Shown here piece by piece: positions 95 through 13,654 of a DNA stretch of 64,000 nucleotides. The notes under the pieces were generated by a model. The model saw nothing but the letters and a program-made list of their open reading frames with translations, ran no database searches and was not told where the DNA came from. How positions within the stretch are numbered: the stretch's first letter is position 1; every line of letters starts with the position of its first letter. Source of the stretch: Pseudomonadota bacterium (GTDB lineage Bacteria > Pseudomonadota > Gammaproteobacteria > Eutrophobiales > Eutrophobiaceae); contig JABFGI010000004.1 in assembly GCA_013112535.1 (NCBI GenBank), forward strand, positions 124,001 to 188,000, in the 5' to 3' direction. A program made the translations under genes and the position numbers.

Positions 95-319
95 ATGAAC
101 GATAATAATAACGAAAATACCGACCTCGGAGCACTCGAATCGAGAGTTGATGAATTAATTAGCACGGTCAACCAGCTAAAAAGCGAAAATTCCGCACTCC
201 GAAATCAACAAGATAGTCTGGTTAATGAGCGTGCCATCCTGATCGAGAAAACTGAGCAGGCAAGAACCCGAATCGAATCAATGATTTCTCGTTTACGAGC
301 AATGGAAACGCGTGCATGA
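95..319 (+). CDS. Small coiled-coil protein, TIGR02449/ZapB-like
   Basis: A 74-residue hydrophilic protein made almost entirely of heptad-like sequence (LESRVDELISTVNQLKSEN near residues 14-32), so it should form a parallel coiled coil. Proteins of this size and type are habitually encoded directly upstream of zapA in gammaproteobacteria (TIGR02449 family, ZapB-like). Its stop overlaps the zapA start in an ATGA, which implies translational coupling. A role in Z-ring organisation is inferred from the neighbour and the fold. No signal peptide or membrane segment is present. Confidence 0.8.
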   Translation: MNDNNNENTDLGALESRVDELISTVNQLKSENSALRNQQDSLVNERAILIEKTEQARTRIESMISRLRAMETRA

Positions 320-669
320 GTAAAGATACCGATCCTGTAAAAGTCACTATCCTTGAAAAAGAATATTTGATTGCCTGTGAAGAAAGCGAAAAAGAACCAC
401 TTCGTAATTCTGCAGATTTTCTTAACCAAAAAATGAATGAGATGAAAAAAAGCGGAGGCGTTATCGGATCTGAACGCATTGCTGTCATGACGGCATTAAA
501 TATTACAAATGAATTACTCGCTTACAAAAAAGAAAATCAGGACTATACTTCATCTATAGACAGTACCCTGAAGCGATTACAAAGCAAGATTAATGATGCC
601 TTGGTAAGGGATACACAAATGGATATGGACGACATTGATATAGACAATCCCATATCGCAAGGCGGCTAG
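316..669 (+). CDS. zapA: Cell division protein ZapA
   Basis: A 117-residue cytoplasmic protein with the ZapA arrangement: an N-terminal beta/alpha head (VKVTILEKEYLIACEESEKE) and a long C-terminal helix from about residue 60. ZapA binds FtsZ and cross-links its filaments during Z-ring assembly. It follows the coiled-coil gene with a 4-base overlap and is followed at once by 6S RNA, the gene order seen across gammaproteobacteria. The length is normal for the family. Confidence 0.92.
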   Translation: MSKDTDPVKVTILEKEYLIACEESEKEPLRNSADFLNQKMNEMKKSGGVIGSERIAVMTALNITNELLAYKKENQDYTSSIDSTLKRLQSKINDALVRDTQMDMDDIDIDNPISQGG

Positions 670-681
670 ATTTATAAAGCT

Positions 682-870
682 TGGGTATCTTCTGTGATGC
701 ACGTTATCTACTCGTGGTAACTTGAGCCGATAAGATATATCGCAGGGAATCTGAAAGTAGTGTTGTTGAGCATGTCCGTCCACGCGGAAAGCCTGATACG
801 CTATCTAAGGTACCCACTTGAACTTCTGGTTCAAGTTCAATGTATGAGACGACATTACGGTTGATACCCC
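682..870 (+). ncRNA. ssrS: 6S RNA
   Basis: The ends pair through GGGTATC (683-689) and GATACCC (863-869), forming the closing stem of a roughly 188-nt rod. Internal blocks match 6S RNA: CTTGAGCCGATA near 721, GAGCATGTCCGTCC near 769, AAGCCTGATAC near 789, and the CTTGAAC-loop-GTTCAAG hairpin near 818-836. The position directly after zapA is the classical one. 6S RNA mimics an open promoter, sequesters sigma-70 RNA polymerase in stationary phase and templates pRNA. The exact ends are estimated from the terminal stem. Confidence 0.93.
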
Positions 871-911
871 CTACTTCTTTCTATATTAATATTCTTTTTA
901 ACTTTGTATCC

Positions 912-1018
912 CGCCTTTATGGCGTCTTATTTTTCTTTAAAGAAAAGTAAGCAAAAGAACCCTTCCCTAATGTCATGGCCTACGGCTCCCTTCGTAAGTA
1001 ATCAGTTGCTACGGGATT
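912..1018 (+). repeat. Left copy of a ~107-bp interspersed element
   Basis: It starts with a short palindrome (CGCCTTTATGGCG), continues with TTTCTTTAAAGAAA and AGTAAGCAAAAG, and then has TTCCCT, GGCCTACGGCTCCC and ACGGGA blocks. The same blocks, in order and with the same spacing, occur in inverted orientation at 2299-2405. Comparable degenerate intergenic elements are widespread in gammaproteobacterial genomes, but I cannot name this one. No reading frame is apparent. The stretch from 871 to 1123 holds nothing else recognisable. Confidence 0.7.
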
Positions 1019-1123
1019 AACGCCTGCCACACCGGCCGAGGGGCGAGGCCCCGAATATCCAACGCGCTTGCGTGTGATGGTGCTGGCATTTGTTATGCGT
1101 AGTTACTAACCCATTGTGAATAT

Positions 1124-1597
1124 TTATTGGCGGAAAGTAGCATGACATTGCACGCAATAACCTAATGTTGTTTTTAAGGCACGAAGTGATTTAGTTGTAT
1201 CTTTGGTTTTCAATGCTTGACCCAGAGAATCACCGCTTTCATGAAACGCCAACCCTAATGCAGTGAAGTCTTCATTATTGAACATATTACACATCTTTCT
1301 CATTTCTTCAGTCAATCCCAACTTTGAATGGGCTATTTCAGAAGCCTTCTCGAACTCTTCCTCTGCTAGAAAACTTGTAATAGCCTGTACTGCCTTTAAA
1401 TGAGACCTCATGTTTGATAATTGATGTTGCTTCATTTCTGGTGAGAGGCCAAGAGATATCCTTCCGTCGTTTATTGAATGCTTCATGTGATGATGTATCA
1501 TTTCTTCCGCTGAACTCTTTTTTTCTTCGGCATAAGAAAACATAGCTATTCCAGCAAAGAACAATATCACTGATAATTTTGATACTTGTTTAATGAT
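1124..1597 (-). CDS. Cytochrome c'-like periplasmic c-type cytochrome
   Basis: The protein has a hydrophobic signal peptide, a helical His/Met-rich body, and a C-terminal CVQCH heme site followed by ATFRQ. A CxxCH-xxFR ending is typical of cytochrome c', a four-helix-bundle heme protein linked to NO binding or detoxification. The first recognised start in frame, a GTG at 1570, has no ribosome site and falls inside the signal peptide. An AGGAGG (1605-1610) sits 7 bases before an in-frame ATC at 1597, which would complete the signal peptide (157 aa), so a non-ATG start or a mutated ATG is likely. It is the last gene of a three-gene cassette. Confidence 0.72.
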   Translation of the reverse strand: MIKQVSKLSVILFFAGIAMFSYAEEKKSSAEEMIHHHMKHSINDGRISLGLSPEMKQHQLSNMRSHLKAVQAITSFLAEEEFEKASEIAHSKLGLTEEMRKMCNMFNNEDFTALGLAFHESGDSLGQALKTKDTTKSLRALKTTLGYCVQCHATFRQ

Positions 1598-1633
1598 GAT
1601 AAATCCTCCTGTTTAATTTACTTAGCTTAACGA

Positions 1634-1726
1634 CTAAACGCAGCCGCCGCTATTAGCGGACGACTGGAGTTTCTTGATTAGAAGTCGATTGTTATAACGC
1701 ACTTTTTTCATGCGACCTGTTTTCAT
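1634..1726 (-). CDS. 30-residue basic peptide ending NSGGCV
   Basis: This short frame has an ATG preceded by AGAGGTG at good spacing and lies between two genes of the same strand. The peptide starts MKTGRMKKVRYNNRLL, continues IKKLQ and ends SSANSGGCV. It has about nine Lys/Arg, no acidic residue, and one cysteine next to the C-terminus behind a Gly-Gly. It has no signal peptide or membrane helix. A basic helical N-terminus with a small Gly-Gly-Cys tail could be a precursor peptide, a metal-binding peptide or a translated leader, but no maturation enzyme is adjacent. I do not recognise the family. Translation is supported only by the ribosome site, position and composition. Confidence 0.5.
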   Translation of the reverse strand: MKTGRMKKVRYNNRLLIKKLQSSANSGGCV

Positions 1727-1729
1727 AAT

Positions 1730-1756
1730 GACACCTCTTAGTTAGGTTAAGGTGTC
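1730..1756 (-). promoter_or_regulatory. Hairpin sequestering the ribosome site of the 30-aa peptide
   Basis: On the minus strand GACACCT and AGGTGTC form a perfect 7-bp stem around a 13-nt loop. The 3' arm contains the AGAGGTG ribosome-binding site, 3 bases before the ATG. This geometry would hide the site until the stem opens, so translational control is plausible. It is inference from pairing alone. Confidence 0.45.
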
Positions 1757-1797
1757 CACTTTATTGATCGAAGATTGACGTCGGGTTGAGATATTTG

Positions 1798-2115
1798 TTA
1801 TAGGAATTTGTATTCATATTCAGTAGCTACTTGTTGAGGACTGTGTTCTTCTTTGATCCTTTCAATAAGGTGTTCTTTATCTACGATGGTATTTATGTTG
1901 TTTTTTTCATAACTAATATAATAGGTTTCAATGTCTTTAATGCCTTCTTTCTCTGCTACAAAGCCTTCTGCATTCATAAATAATACATGACTATCATTTT
2001 CTTCATCTTCGCCCACGTAAATATAGGTTTTGTTAGTAGGTATGCTTAGTTCTTTATCAAAAAAAGCAACATGAAAATATGTTTCTCCTTTTCTAAGTTC
2101 GATAACATCTTTCAT
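1798..2115 (-). CDS. Unknown 105-residue acidic protein
   Basis: First gene of the repeat-bounded cassette. The protein is acidic and beta-rich in appearance (ETYFHVAFFDKELSI, then TYIYVGEDEEN, then VLFMNAEGFV), with a helical C-terminus (KEHLIERIKEEH). It has no signal peptide, transmembrane segment or cysteine, so it is probably cytoplasmic. I recognise no family. A promoter and two palindromes precede it, and it reads towards the 30-aa peptide and the cytochrome. The ribosome site is weak (GGGAT before the ATG). Confidence 0.6.
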   Translation of the reverse strand: MKDVIELRKGETYFHVAFFDKELSIPTNKTYIYVGEDEENDSHVLFMNAEGFVAEKEGIKDIETYYISYEKNNINTIVDKEHLIERIKEEHSPQQVATEYEYKFL

Positions 2116-2128
2116 TTTTTTAAATCCC

Positions 2129-2145
2129 TATAACAGTATGTTATA
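2129..2145. promoter_or_regulatory. Perfect 7-3-7 palindrome in the cassette leader
   Basis: TATAACAGTATGTTATA is a perfect dyad with a 3-base centre. It lies in the predicted 5' leader, about 14-30 bases before the start of the 105-aa gene. It could bind a repressor dimer or form a small RNA hairpin near the ribosome site. Confidence 0.4.
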
Positions 2146-2159
2146 TGGAATCGGGTTAG

Positions 2160-2207
2160 CATGTTAAACATGGATTCTATATAGTATTGATAAAGTGGAA
2201 ATAACAA
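2160..2207 (-). promoter_or_regulatory. Predicted promoter with palindromic operator for the cassette operon
   Basis: On the minus strand TTGTTA (2207-2202) and TATATA (2183-2178) are 18 bases apart. Just after the -10, where the transcript should begin, is the perfect palindrome CATGTTAAACATG (2160-2172). An operator overlapping the start site would suit a repressor. The regulator is unknown. Confidence 0.45.
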
Positions 2208-2298
2208 ATTGTATTTTTTCAATTCCTTATCTCCTTTCTTCCCTTGTAGAACATATTAAGATTATCACAACAATTAATTATCAACGAGGATTTGCTTT

Positions 2299-2405
2299 TC
2301 TTCCCGTGGTGCTTTGCCGAGGAGGGGAGCCTTCAGGCCAAAGCATCAGGGAAAAGACTTTTTGCTTACTTTTTCGTCTGAAAAAGTGAATCGCCATTAA
2401 AGGCG
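2299..2405 (-). repeat. Right copy of the ~107-bp interspersed element, inverted
   Basis: Read on the minus strand it has the same ordered blocks as the copy at 912-1018: CGCCTTTAATGGCG, an AAAAAGTAAGCAAAAAG stretch, TTCCCT, GGCCTGAAGGCTCCC and CACGGGA. Similarity is clear but imperfect. The two copies face each other across the 1.3-kb cassette. The stretch from 2208 to 2427 contains nothing else. Confidence 0.68.
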
Positions 2406-2427
2406 AAACCAAAGTTAAAAATAGCTA

Positions 2428-3954
2428 TTAACTCAAAAATTTCTGATAAGCAGGATTATTCGTTTCTTTCCAGTATGTAATACCCAGTCCATCAACAAAC
2501 TTTTGAAACTCATCGCGCTCTTCTTCTTTGACCTGAAACCCCATTAGTACGCGACCATAGGCAGCACCATGATTTCGATAATGAAACAAGCTGATGTTCC
2601 AACGTTCGTTCATTTCGTTTAGAAAATGCAATAACGCACCAGATCGTTCCGGAAATTCGAAACGGTAGATAACTTCATTTTCGGCTTGTGGAGCATGTCC
2701 ACCAACCATGTAACGGATATGCATCTTGGCGACAGTATCGTTACTTAAGTCAGTTACGTCATAACCTTTTTCAAGAAGATGACTCATTAATGCATCTTTT
2801 TCCGAAATACCTTTTTTAAGTTGTACACCGACGAACACACAGGCATCTTCATTATCTGCATAACGATAATTAAATTCTGTGATTAAACGAGGTCCAAGAT
2901 CGTGACAAAGATGACGAAAACTTCCCGGTCGTTCCGGAATACCGATAACCAGTAACGCTTCACGATGTTCACCCAATGCAGAAAGTTCAGCAATATGCCG
3001 CAGGCGATCGAAATTAACATTTGCACCACTGAATATGGCAATTAATTCCTTATCGTTTATATTTTCTCGTGCAACATATTGTTTTAAGCCAGCTAGTGCT
3101 AACGCGCCTGCCGGTTCAGGAATTGATCGCGTATCTTCGAAAATATCTTTTACTGCGGCACAAATATCATCGATTGTAACGAGTAATACTTCATCCACTA
3201 ATTCTTTTGCAATACGATAGTTTTCTTCACCAACTTGTATCACAGCAGCGCCATCAGCAAAAATGCCTATCTGATCCAGTACAACACGATCATTGGCTTC
3301 GAAAGCATGATGCATACTTGGCGCCTCATCATGTTCAACACCGATAATTTTTATTTCCGGATGATGTTCCTTTACATAGGCCGCAATACCTGCAATTAAA
3401 CCACCACCACCGACAGGAACAAAAATAACATCTGGTTTGCCCGGGTGTTGTTCTAACAATTCAACACCGACGGTTGCCTGTCCGGCTATCACCAAAGGAT
3501 GATCAAATGGCGGGATGTAGTACATACCCGTTTCTTTTGACAATTTGTAAGCATGATCTTTCGCTTCATCATAGGTATTGCCATGTAAAACCACTTCAGC
3601 ATTCATACGCTTAACAGAGCTCACCTTGATATCAGGCGTCGTCTTGGGCATCACTATCACAGCCTTCAGAGCCAGCCCTTGTGCAGCCAAAGCCACACCT
3701 TGCGCGTGATTACCGGCAGAAGCAGTGATAACACCACTTTTGCGTTCTTCCTCAGACAGGGAAGCAATCATATTGTAAGCACCACGCAGTTTATAGGAGA
3801 AAACCGGTTGCTGGTCTTCACGTTTTAACCAGATGTTATTACTGAGTCGTTGTGATAATTGCGGTGCATGATCCAAATCCGTACGTTTTGCGACGGTATA
3901 GATTCGTTTACCCGCTTCATCAATTAATTTTTTGTATTCTTCAAACATTGGCAT
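2428..3954 (-). CDS. ilvA: Threonine ammonia-lyase, biosynthetic
   Basis: A 508-residue PLP enzyme that deaminates L-threonine to 2-oxobutanoate, the committed step of isoleucine synthesis. The PLP lysine is in SYKLRGAYN (Lys55), and the phosphate-binding glycine loop is PVGGGGLIAG. The C-terminal ~180 residues form the two ACT-like regulatory domains (LVIGIPERPGSFRHL; YRFEFPERSGALLHF), so isoleucine feedback is expected. Length is normal. It is divergent from rpiA with only 49 bases between; the start may be Met1 or Met3. Confidence 0.96.
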   Translation of the reverse strand: MPMFEEYKKLIDEAGKRIYTVAKRTDLDHAPQLSQRLSNNIWLKREDQQPVFSYKLRGAYNMIASLSEEERKSGVITASAGNHAQGVALAAQGLALKAVIVMPKTTPDIKVSSVKRMNAEVVLHGNTYDEAKDHAYKLSKETGMYYIPPFDHPLVIAGQATVGVELLEQHPGKPDVIFVPVGGGGLIAGIAAYVKEHHPEIKIIGVEHDEAPSMHHAFEANDRVVLDQIGIFADGAAVIQVGEENYRIAKELVDEVLLVTIDDICAAVKDIFEDTRSIPEPAGALALAGLKQYVARENINDKELIAIFSGANVNFDRLRHIAELSALGEHREALLVIGIPERPGSFRHLCHDLGPRLITEFNYRYADNEDACVFVGVQLKKGISEKDALMSHLLEKGYDVTDLSNDTVAKMHIRYMVGGHAPQAENEVIYRFEFPERSGALLHFLNEMNERWNISLFHYRNHGAAYGRVLMGFQVKEEERDEFQKFVDGLGITYWKETNNPAYQKFLS

Positions 3955-13039: not shown

Positions 13040-13633
13040 ATGAGTAATCGTAGTGCAACAATAAAACGTGACACCAAAGAAACACAAATTGAGGTTTCTG
13101 TAAATCTTGATGGCAGCGGTAAAGCTGAGCTGGATATTGGTGTTCCGTTTCTGGAACATATGCTTGATCAAATTGCCCGTCATGGAATGTTCGATCTGAC
13201 AATTAAAGCCAACGGCGATCTGGAAATTGATGCACACCATACGGTTGAAGATGTAGGTATAACTTTAGGTCAGGCTTTTACCGAAGCCCTGGGCGATAAA
13301 AAAGGCATTCGTCGATATGCACATGCCTATGTGCCACTTGATGAGGCCTTGTCACGCGTCGTTATCGATTGTTCCGGTCGCCCCGGTCTTGAATACAATG
13401 CAAATTATCCACGGGCTCGGGTTGGCGATTTCGATGTCGATTTAATATTTGAATTCTTTCAGGGGTTTATTAATCACGCAATGATGTCGCTACACATAGA
13501 TAGCATCCGTGGTCGTAATTCACACCATATTGCCGAGACTATCTTCAAGGCTTTTGGTCGTGCACTTCGTGTTGCAGTGGAACAAGATCCACGTATGGAA
13601 GGTATTTTACCCTCTACCAAAGGCGCCTTATAA
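13040..13633 (+). CDS. hisB: Imidazoleglycerol-phosphate dehydratase
   Basis: A 197-residue monofunctional HisB dehydratase, step 6 of histidine synthesis. The two metal-binding motifs are [10 protein letters not shown] and [15 protein letters not shown]. The frame is open upstream into hemF, but conservation starts at [15 protein letters not shown], and the length then matches the family. No N-terminal phosphatase domain is present. hisH follows 21 bases later. Confidence 0.96.
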
Positions 13634-13654
13634 GTTATCCACTAGAAATTTATT

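Follow-up and report, generated by a model that had tools for sequence, protein, structure and literature searches.

Repeated hairpins of the REP/BIME type, which are accompanied by a RAYT (Y1) transposase, covary and often stand as inverted pairs between convergent genes. TIME-COMPs, including the units bounded by integron mobilization units (IMUs), consist of two inverted non-coding copies of about 250 bp around variable cargo, and one described case carries integron cargo (PMC13367494). TIMEs themselves have terminal inverted repeats of the Tn3 type and direct repeats of 5-6 bp (PMC13367494).

The locus between ssrS and ilvA in the genome under study (G000) lies in the window, the whole stretch of 64,000 nucleotides that was analysed, and shares features with each of these systems and with CALINs. 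Its hairpin family covaries and forms inverted pairs between convergent genes as REP/BIME elements do, but has far fewer copies, a longer unit, cargo of 0.1-4.4 kb between the facing copies and no Y1 gene in G000. The outline, with inverted element copies around variable cargo, is that of a TIME-COMP; unlike in a TIME-COMP, no direct repeat was found at the locus and no transposase is known for it, and its two repeat copies belong to different subtypes that are 67% identical, which falls short of similar ends. Like a CALIN, the locus holds short genes on the same strand, each with an attC-like site after it, and has no integrase, and it shares the ORFan content and a gene whose homologue is a cassette elsewhere. 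It differs from a CALIN in having only two cassettes, one of them with a degraded attC, and facing hairpins as brackets between conserved genes. No description of this facing-repeat arrangement was found in the literature searched. We favour, with a probability of roughly 0.6, the reading that the locus is an acquired pocket between convergent genes, in which separately derived hairpins face each other around a CALIN-like array without an integrase.

Outline and history of the ssrS-ilvA site

The gap between ssrS and ilvA in G000 spans about 1,560 bp. The features of the locus and its flanks are as follows.

316-669, plus strand: zapA, an ORF upstream of the 6S RNA; zapA and 6S RNA are syntenic in relatives
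686-867, plus strand: 6S RNA (ssrS), the left flank (Rfam RF00013, 81.1 bits)
898-1015, plus strand: left repeat copy (R1 profile match at 912-997, 99.8 bits; hairpin covariation)
1015-1098, minus strand: attC_B, attC-like site of the cytochrome cassette (sequence; scan score 14)
1124-1594, minus strand: gene of a cytochrome c'-like protein, which has a signal peptide and CVQCH near its C-terminus (ORF; sequence and fold matches)
1625-1683, minus strand: attC_A, probable attC belonging to the cassette upstream, its R'' box degenerate (TTCTAATCAAG...GTTTAGTCGTTAAGC; box match by eye)
1634-1726, minus strand: 30-aa ORF, overlapping attC_A over its 3' half; no family match
1778-1803, minus strand: left attC half across the stop codon of the 105-aa ORF, with no recognisable right half
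1798-2115, minus strand: 105-aa ORF (ORF call)
~2300-2418, minus strand: right repeat copy, short complete form (R1 profile match at 2322-2404, 85.1 bits)
2428-3954, minus strand: ilvA, the right flank, convergent with ssrS (ORF; syntenic in G004 and G012)

Read along the minus strand, the order is thus the 105-aa ORF, the half attC, the probable attC, the cytochrome gene, attC_B and the truncated left repeat. The original prediction had described a three-gene cassette with its own promoter, bounded by facing repeats and suggestive of a mobile or transferred unit without a transposase. That the two repeats face each other and share their blocks in the same order is borne out, with a local alignment score of 49, against 25 or less in 1,000 shuffles. 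Two genes and a short ORF remain of the cassette: the 30-aa ORF, whose 3' half lies inside the probable attC, is probably not a gene. The claim of a promoter falls away, promoter-like sites being at chance level (5 found versus 5.2 expected).

The vacant site that the prediction had proposed looking for is present in two relatives, neither of which has these genes there. In G004, of the same genus and with an ilvA 88% identical, about 150 bp separate ssrS from ilvA and hold one lone palindromic hairpin; in G012, from another genus, the separation is about 60 bp and has no hairpin. A different facing unit with an attC-like site fills the gap between 6S RNA and xthA in G002, with VIT1, an ArsP-like permease and thioredoxin as cargo, and the same gap is short in G005 and G009, the latter with a mini palindrome. 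The locus is unreadable in G003, where the 6S contig stops at the RNA and a second contig breaks off within the cytochrome gene. Comparison with these genomes supports a recent acquisition of the genes between ssrS and ilvA. The transfer of the genes stands from the original prediction, while the reading of the locus as a repeat-bounded transposon is unproven.

That all genes lie on one strand would also fit a native operon of the lineage that relatives have lost. The 105-aa ORF, however, is absent from 57 relatives and found only one weak match (E 0.006) in 369 genomes of the class, few relatives have the cytochrome gene, and at other places, and attC-like sites lie between the genes. The native operon is disfavoured as very improbable.

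Encoded proteins and attC-like sites

The cytochrome c'-like protein that had been predicted is supported, with the protein scoring 23.4 bits against PF01322, under the Pfam gathering score of 26.5. Cytochrome c' is the best weak match both by sequence and by fold (fold match E 0.04), and the structure model (pLDDT 78.6) is helical and places the C-terminal CxxCH on a helical bundle, as in the class II cytochromes c of PF01322. The score below the Pfam cut-off sets the protein apart from that family, and its well conserved relatives, whose end is GYCVQCHATFRQ, form a distinct subfamily with homologues scattered over MAGs of Nitrospina, Gallionella, Hahellaceae and Planctomycetota. A homologue at L095 is 74% identical to the window protein. 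The window gene opens with ATC ATT (1592-1597) after a good ribosome-binding site where L095 has ATC ATG, and no ATG, GTG or TTG precedes the signal peptide in the window gene. Because ATT stands at the homologue's ATG codon, the cytochrome gene may be poorly translated or decaying. At L096 (582-1424) a Y1 (RAYT-like) transposase ORF comes right after the closest cytochrome homologue, which is 88% identical.

The 105-aa protein, as the original prediction had held, belongs to no recognised family, with no match in Pfam, NCBIfam or PADLOC. A search for a plasmid or phage source also gave no match, and the structure model (pLDDT 52.8) is too poor to use. As judged from these searches, the 105-aa ORF is an orphan.

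Both genes lie on the minus strand with attC-like sites at their 3' ends, as in a cassette array, and the positions of these sites after the genes are far from random. The calls rest on box matches, scans and folding against shuffles rather than on an attC-specific covariance model. attC_B, which reads GCATAAC AAA TGCCA(G)CACC ... GGTG TGGCA GGC GTTAATC, has both boxes and one extrahelical base, and it starts 25 nt past the cytochrome stop codon in the right orientation. By structure alone, chance would produce its score of 14 about once in every 64 kb, and in folding energy it does no better than shuffles. attC_A folds with a z of -3.05, and 1 of 200 shuffles was equally stable. Of all left-half attC matches in the 64 kb, the one at the stop codon of the 105-aa ORF scores highest, at 17.5; 1 of 10 shuffled windows reached 17.6.

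Evidence from other genomes bears on the cassette nature of the cytochrome gene. The L095 homologue stands between two attC sites, the downstream one with a fold z of -3.2, and is a bona fide cassette; attC-like remnants lie downstream of the homologues in L096 and G003. IntI is encoded in G000 itself, on another contig (G000:C5:77806-78750; 436.9 bits, where the cut-off is 265), within a chromosomal integron of IntI and about six attC-bearing cassettes (G000:C5:73746-78753, which is L155 9746-14753). With attC-like sites after the genes and a homologue known as a cassette elsewhere, an integron would be a more economical vehicle for these genes than a repeat-bounded unit.

The hairpin family and its facing pairs

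An R1 profile was built from five repeat copies, and the two window copies are its first hit and a high-ranking one. The profile finds 8 to 10 copies in G000, varying with the E-value limit, where plain blastn finds five; weak blastn matches at L007-L023 were rejected as chance. Relatives hold 0 to 19 copies per genome. A complete copy of about 110-270 bp consists of an outer mini hairpin (TTTCGCC..GGCGAG), a main hairpin (ACTTTTCTTTG..CAAAGAAAAGT) and conserved blocks (GTAAGCAAAAG..CCCTAATGTCATGGCC..GGCTCCC), followed by a variable loop and a closing arm. In the main hairpin 95.7% of cells are paired and 104 cells are double-changed, against 27 in shuffles, in an alignment that was fitted to the hairpin model and leans towards it; slid versions of the hairpin drop to about 50% pairing. 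Judged by this alignment, compensatory change keeps the main hairpin.

The left window copy has the outer mini hairpin, the main hairpin and the conserved inner blocks, and its inner loop and closing arm are absent from 1016 on. Its homology to other copies spans 889/892-1015, with its end falling at 1004-1015. It is 93% identical to a copy in G007. The right copy is 83% identical to a copy in G003, and its nearest copies are L200 and L186.

Several copies show features of their own. At L183 757-999 (G002:C2:708756-708998) two repeat subtypes are joined at their loops into a cargo-free palindrome of 240 bp, which may have arisen by deletion. A near-identical segment of 164 bp lies just inside the repeat at unrelated loci of G002 (L184 1480-1645) and G007 (L189 5210-5380), which suggests that the repeat and adjoining DNA travel or recombine together. 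The motif GTGGACAC..TATAAT, with an AGGAGG-like site after it (L155 ~13560-13640, L188 ~3000-3060, and L199 and L200 after the repeat), precedes both the integron's first cassette and genes that follow repeats.

Counting copies less than 6 kb apart as close neighbours, we find 25 facing, 1 diverging and 3 tandem pairs over the family genomes and G045. The first set of 83 copies gave 13 facing, 0 diverging and 2 tandem pairs, where random placement gave a mean of 0.3 facing pairs and a maximum of 3 in 2,000 trials; further family genomes from other genera added 12 facing, 1 diverging and 1 tandem. Copies also stand singly beside unrelated genes, and the facing pairs recur far beyond chance. Besides the G002 unit, cargo between facing copies includes a DpnII-MboI-type nuclease, a GDSL-like lipase, DUF2059, a HigA-like regulator, DUF1304 and small-ORF arrays. 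Two arrays, L189 1230-5280 (G007:C23, between ilvA and metW) and L159 6870-11380 (G003:C81), each hold about eight small ORFs on the same strand, separated by palindromes of 45-60 bp (TGTCYGCTTCTGGCCGAA...CCAAAGCGGACATTA) that are not attC; the G003 cytochrome c' homologue stands at the end of the L159 array.

The ssrS, ilvA, xthA, metW and mgtE loci of G000, G002, G004, G007, G009 and G016 have different neighbours across the facing units, the pairs being 6S-ilvA, 6S-xthA, ilvA-metW and metW-mgtE. As these neighbour pairs change between genomes, the repeats are located at synteny breakpoints.

The excess of facing over diverging pairs (25:1) would fit repeats that are the ends of a non-autonomous composite element, MITE- or TIME-like, whose cargo is carried whole and whose transposase or recombinase is supplied in trans. 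The conserved hairpin and the 164-bp segment shared by unrelated loci agree with this, and the vacant sites with a lone hairpin (G004) or a mini palindrome (G009) could be excision products. Against it, in the facing pairs compared the partner is never the closest relative of either copy, the mean identity being 0.68 between facing partners versus 0.65 for unpaired copies, and the sole mutual best partners are a tandem pair (L196). Single copies occur, and direct repeats flanking the units were not found, the longest shared flank words being no longer than with shuffled partners. Searches for transposases and recombinases covered the Y1 transposase and IntI; the Y1 transposase (PF01797) was not found in G000, G002, G003, G004, G009 or G016, which have 5-10 copies each, and is missing from most copy-rich genomes of the genus. 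We consider this composite element unlikely. A transposon with matched ends was rejected on the dissimilar partners and the lack of direct repeats, RAYT/Y1 as a driver was rejected on the absence of the Y1 transposase from G000, and the reading of the repeats as matched ends of one transferred unit is not supported, the window copies being closer to copies elsewhere than to each other and lone copies occurring as well.

The repeats may instead be terminators or insulators at convergent 3' ends, with foreign DNA piling up in protected gaps and the facing arrangement reflecting gene orientation. The outer ends of the pairs point to stop codons about 20-75 bp away, convergent genes enclose 10 of the 12 pairs whose neighbours can be seen on both sides, the outer mini hairpin of the right copy has a terminator-like score, and paired copies are unrelated. 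With about 10 copies per genome, however, both convergent genes would rarely have one by chance (the null mean being 0.3), there are copies next to the start of a divergent gene (L004), and terminator-like sites in the region occur at chance number. This explanation is plausible, at somewhat less than even odds. Separately, a split bidirectional terminator with complementary outer flanks, which 1 of 5,000 permutations matched in the first 13 pairs (8 of 5,000 without L193), was rejected when 12 new pairs gave 2,275 of 10,000 permutations and no support; we do not claim it because these pairs failed to reproduce the signal of the first set.

Integrons cannot account for every facing pair, because attC-like halves were present in the cargo of only 3 of the 14 close pairs scanned. 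intI is found in six of the seven genomes with at least 8 repeat copies and in 9 of 46 others (Fisher p 0.0013, post hoc and uncorrected for relatedness), a link between intI and repeat copy number that is suggestive only. A tentative and rather doubtful further reading takes the facing elements as an undescribed composite gene-capture element of this gammaproteobacterial family. Its hairpin ends would settle at convergent 3' ends, and the genes exchanged between them would include cassettes, restriction-type nucleases, toxin-antitoxin-like genes and transporters, with IntI perhaps helping, since genomes with intI hold the most copies.

A proposed acquired pocket between facing hairpins

In the acquired pocket that we favour, two cassettes would lie on the minus strand, one holding the 105-aa ORF and the other the cytochrome c'-like gene, with an attC or its remnant after each, and the outer ends of both hairpin copies would point towards the neighbouring stop codons. 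IntI may have inserted the cassettes at ssrS-ilvA, and the probable target is the left repeat or its immediate edge. The homology of this repeat ends at 1015, and the attC crossover is predicted five bases away, at 1020/1021. The remainder of the left repeat was not found beyond the cassettes, on their other side, and since it is missing, simple insertion is not the whole explanation. The repeats may indicate where insertions downstream of genes are tolerated, and the outer mini hairpin with its T-rich tract could serve the flanking gene as a terminator. Provided that translation begins at its ATT codon, the cytochrome would be a haem-binding protein of the periplasm.

The facing arrangement around other genes may mark a recurring kind of landing place for foreign genes in the family. 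CALINs are common, but little is known of how their cassettes come to occupy other sites of the chromosome. This locus is a dated insertion whose site is vacant in relatives; the genome has an integrase of its own, and the repeat family brackets variable cargo at two dozen places. The case lets one test whether structured repeats serve as secondary cassette targets. The boundary hairpins also provide a way to locate sites of gene exchange.
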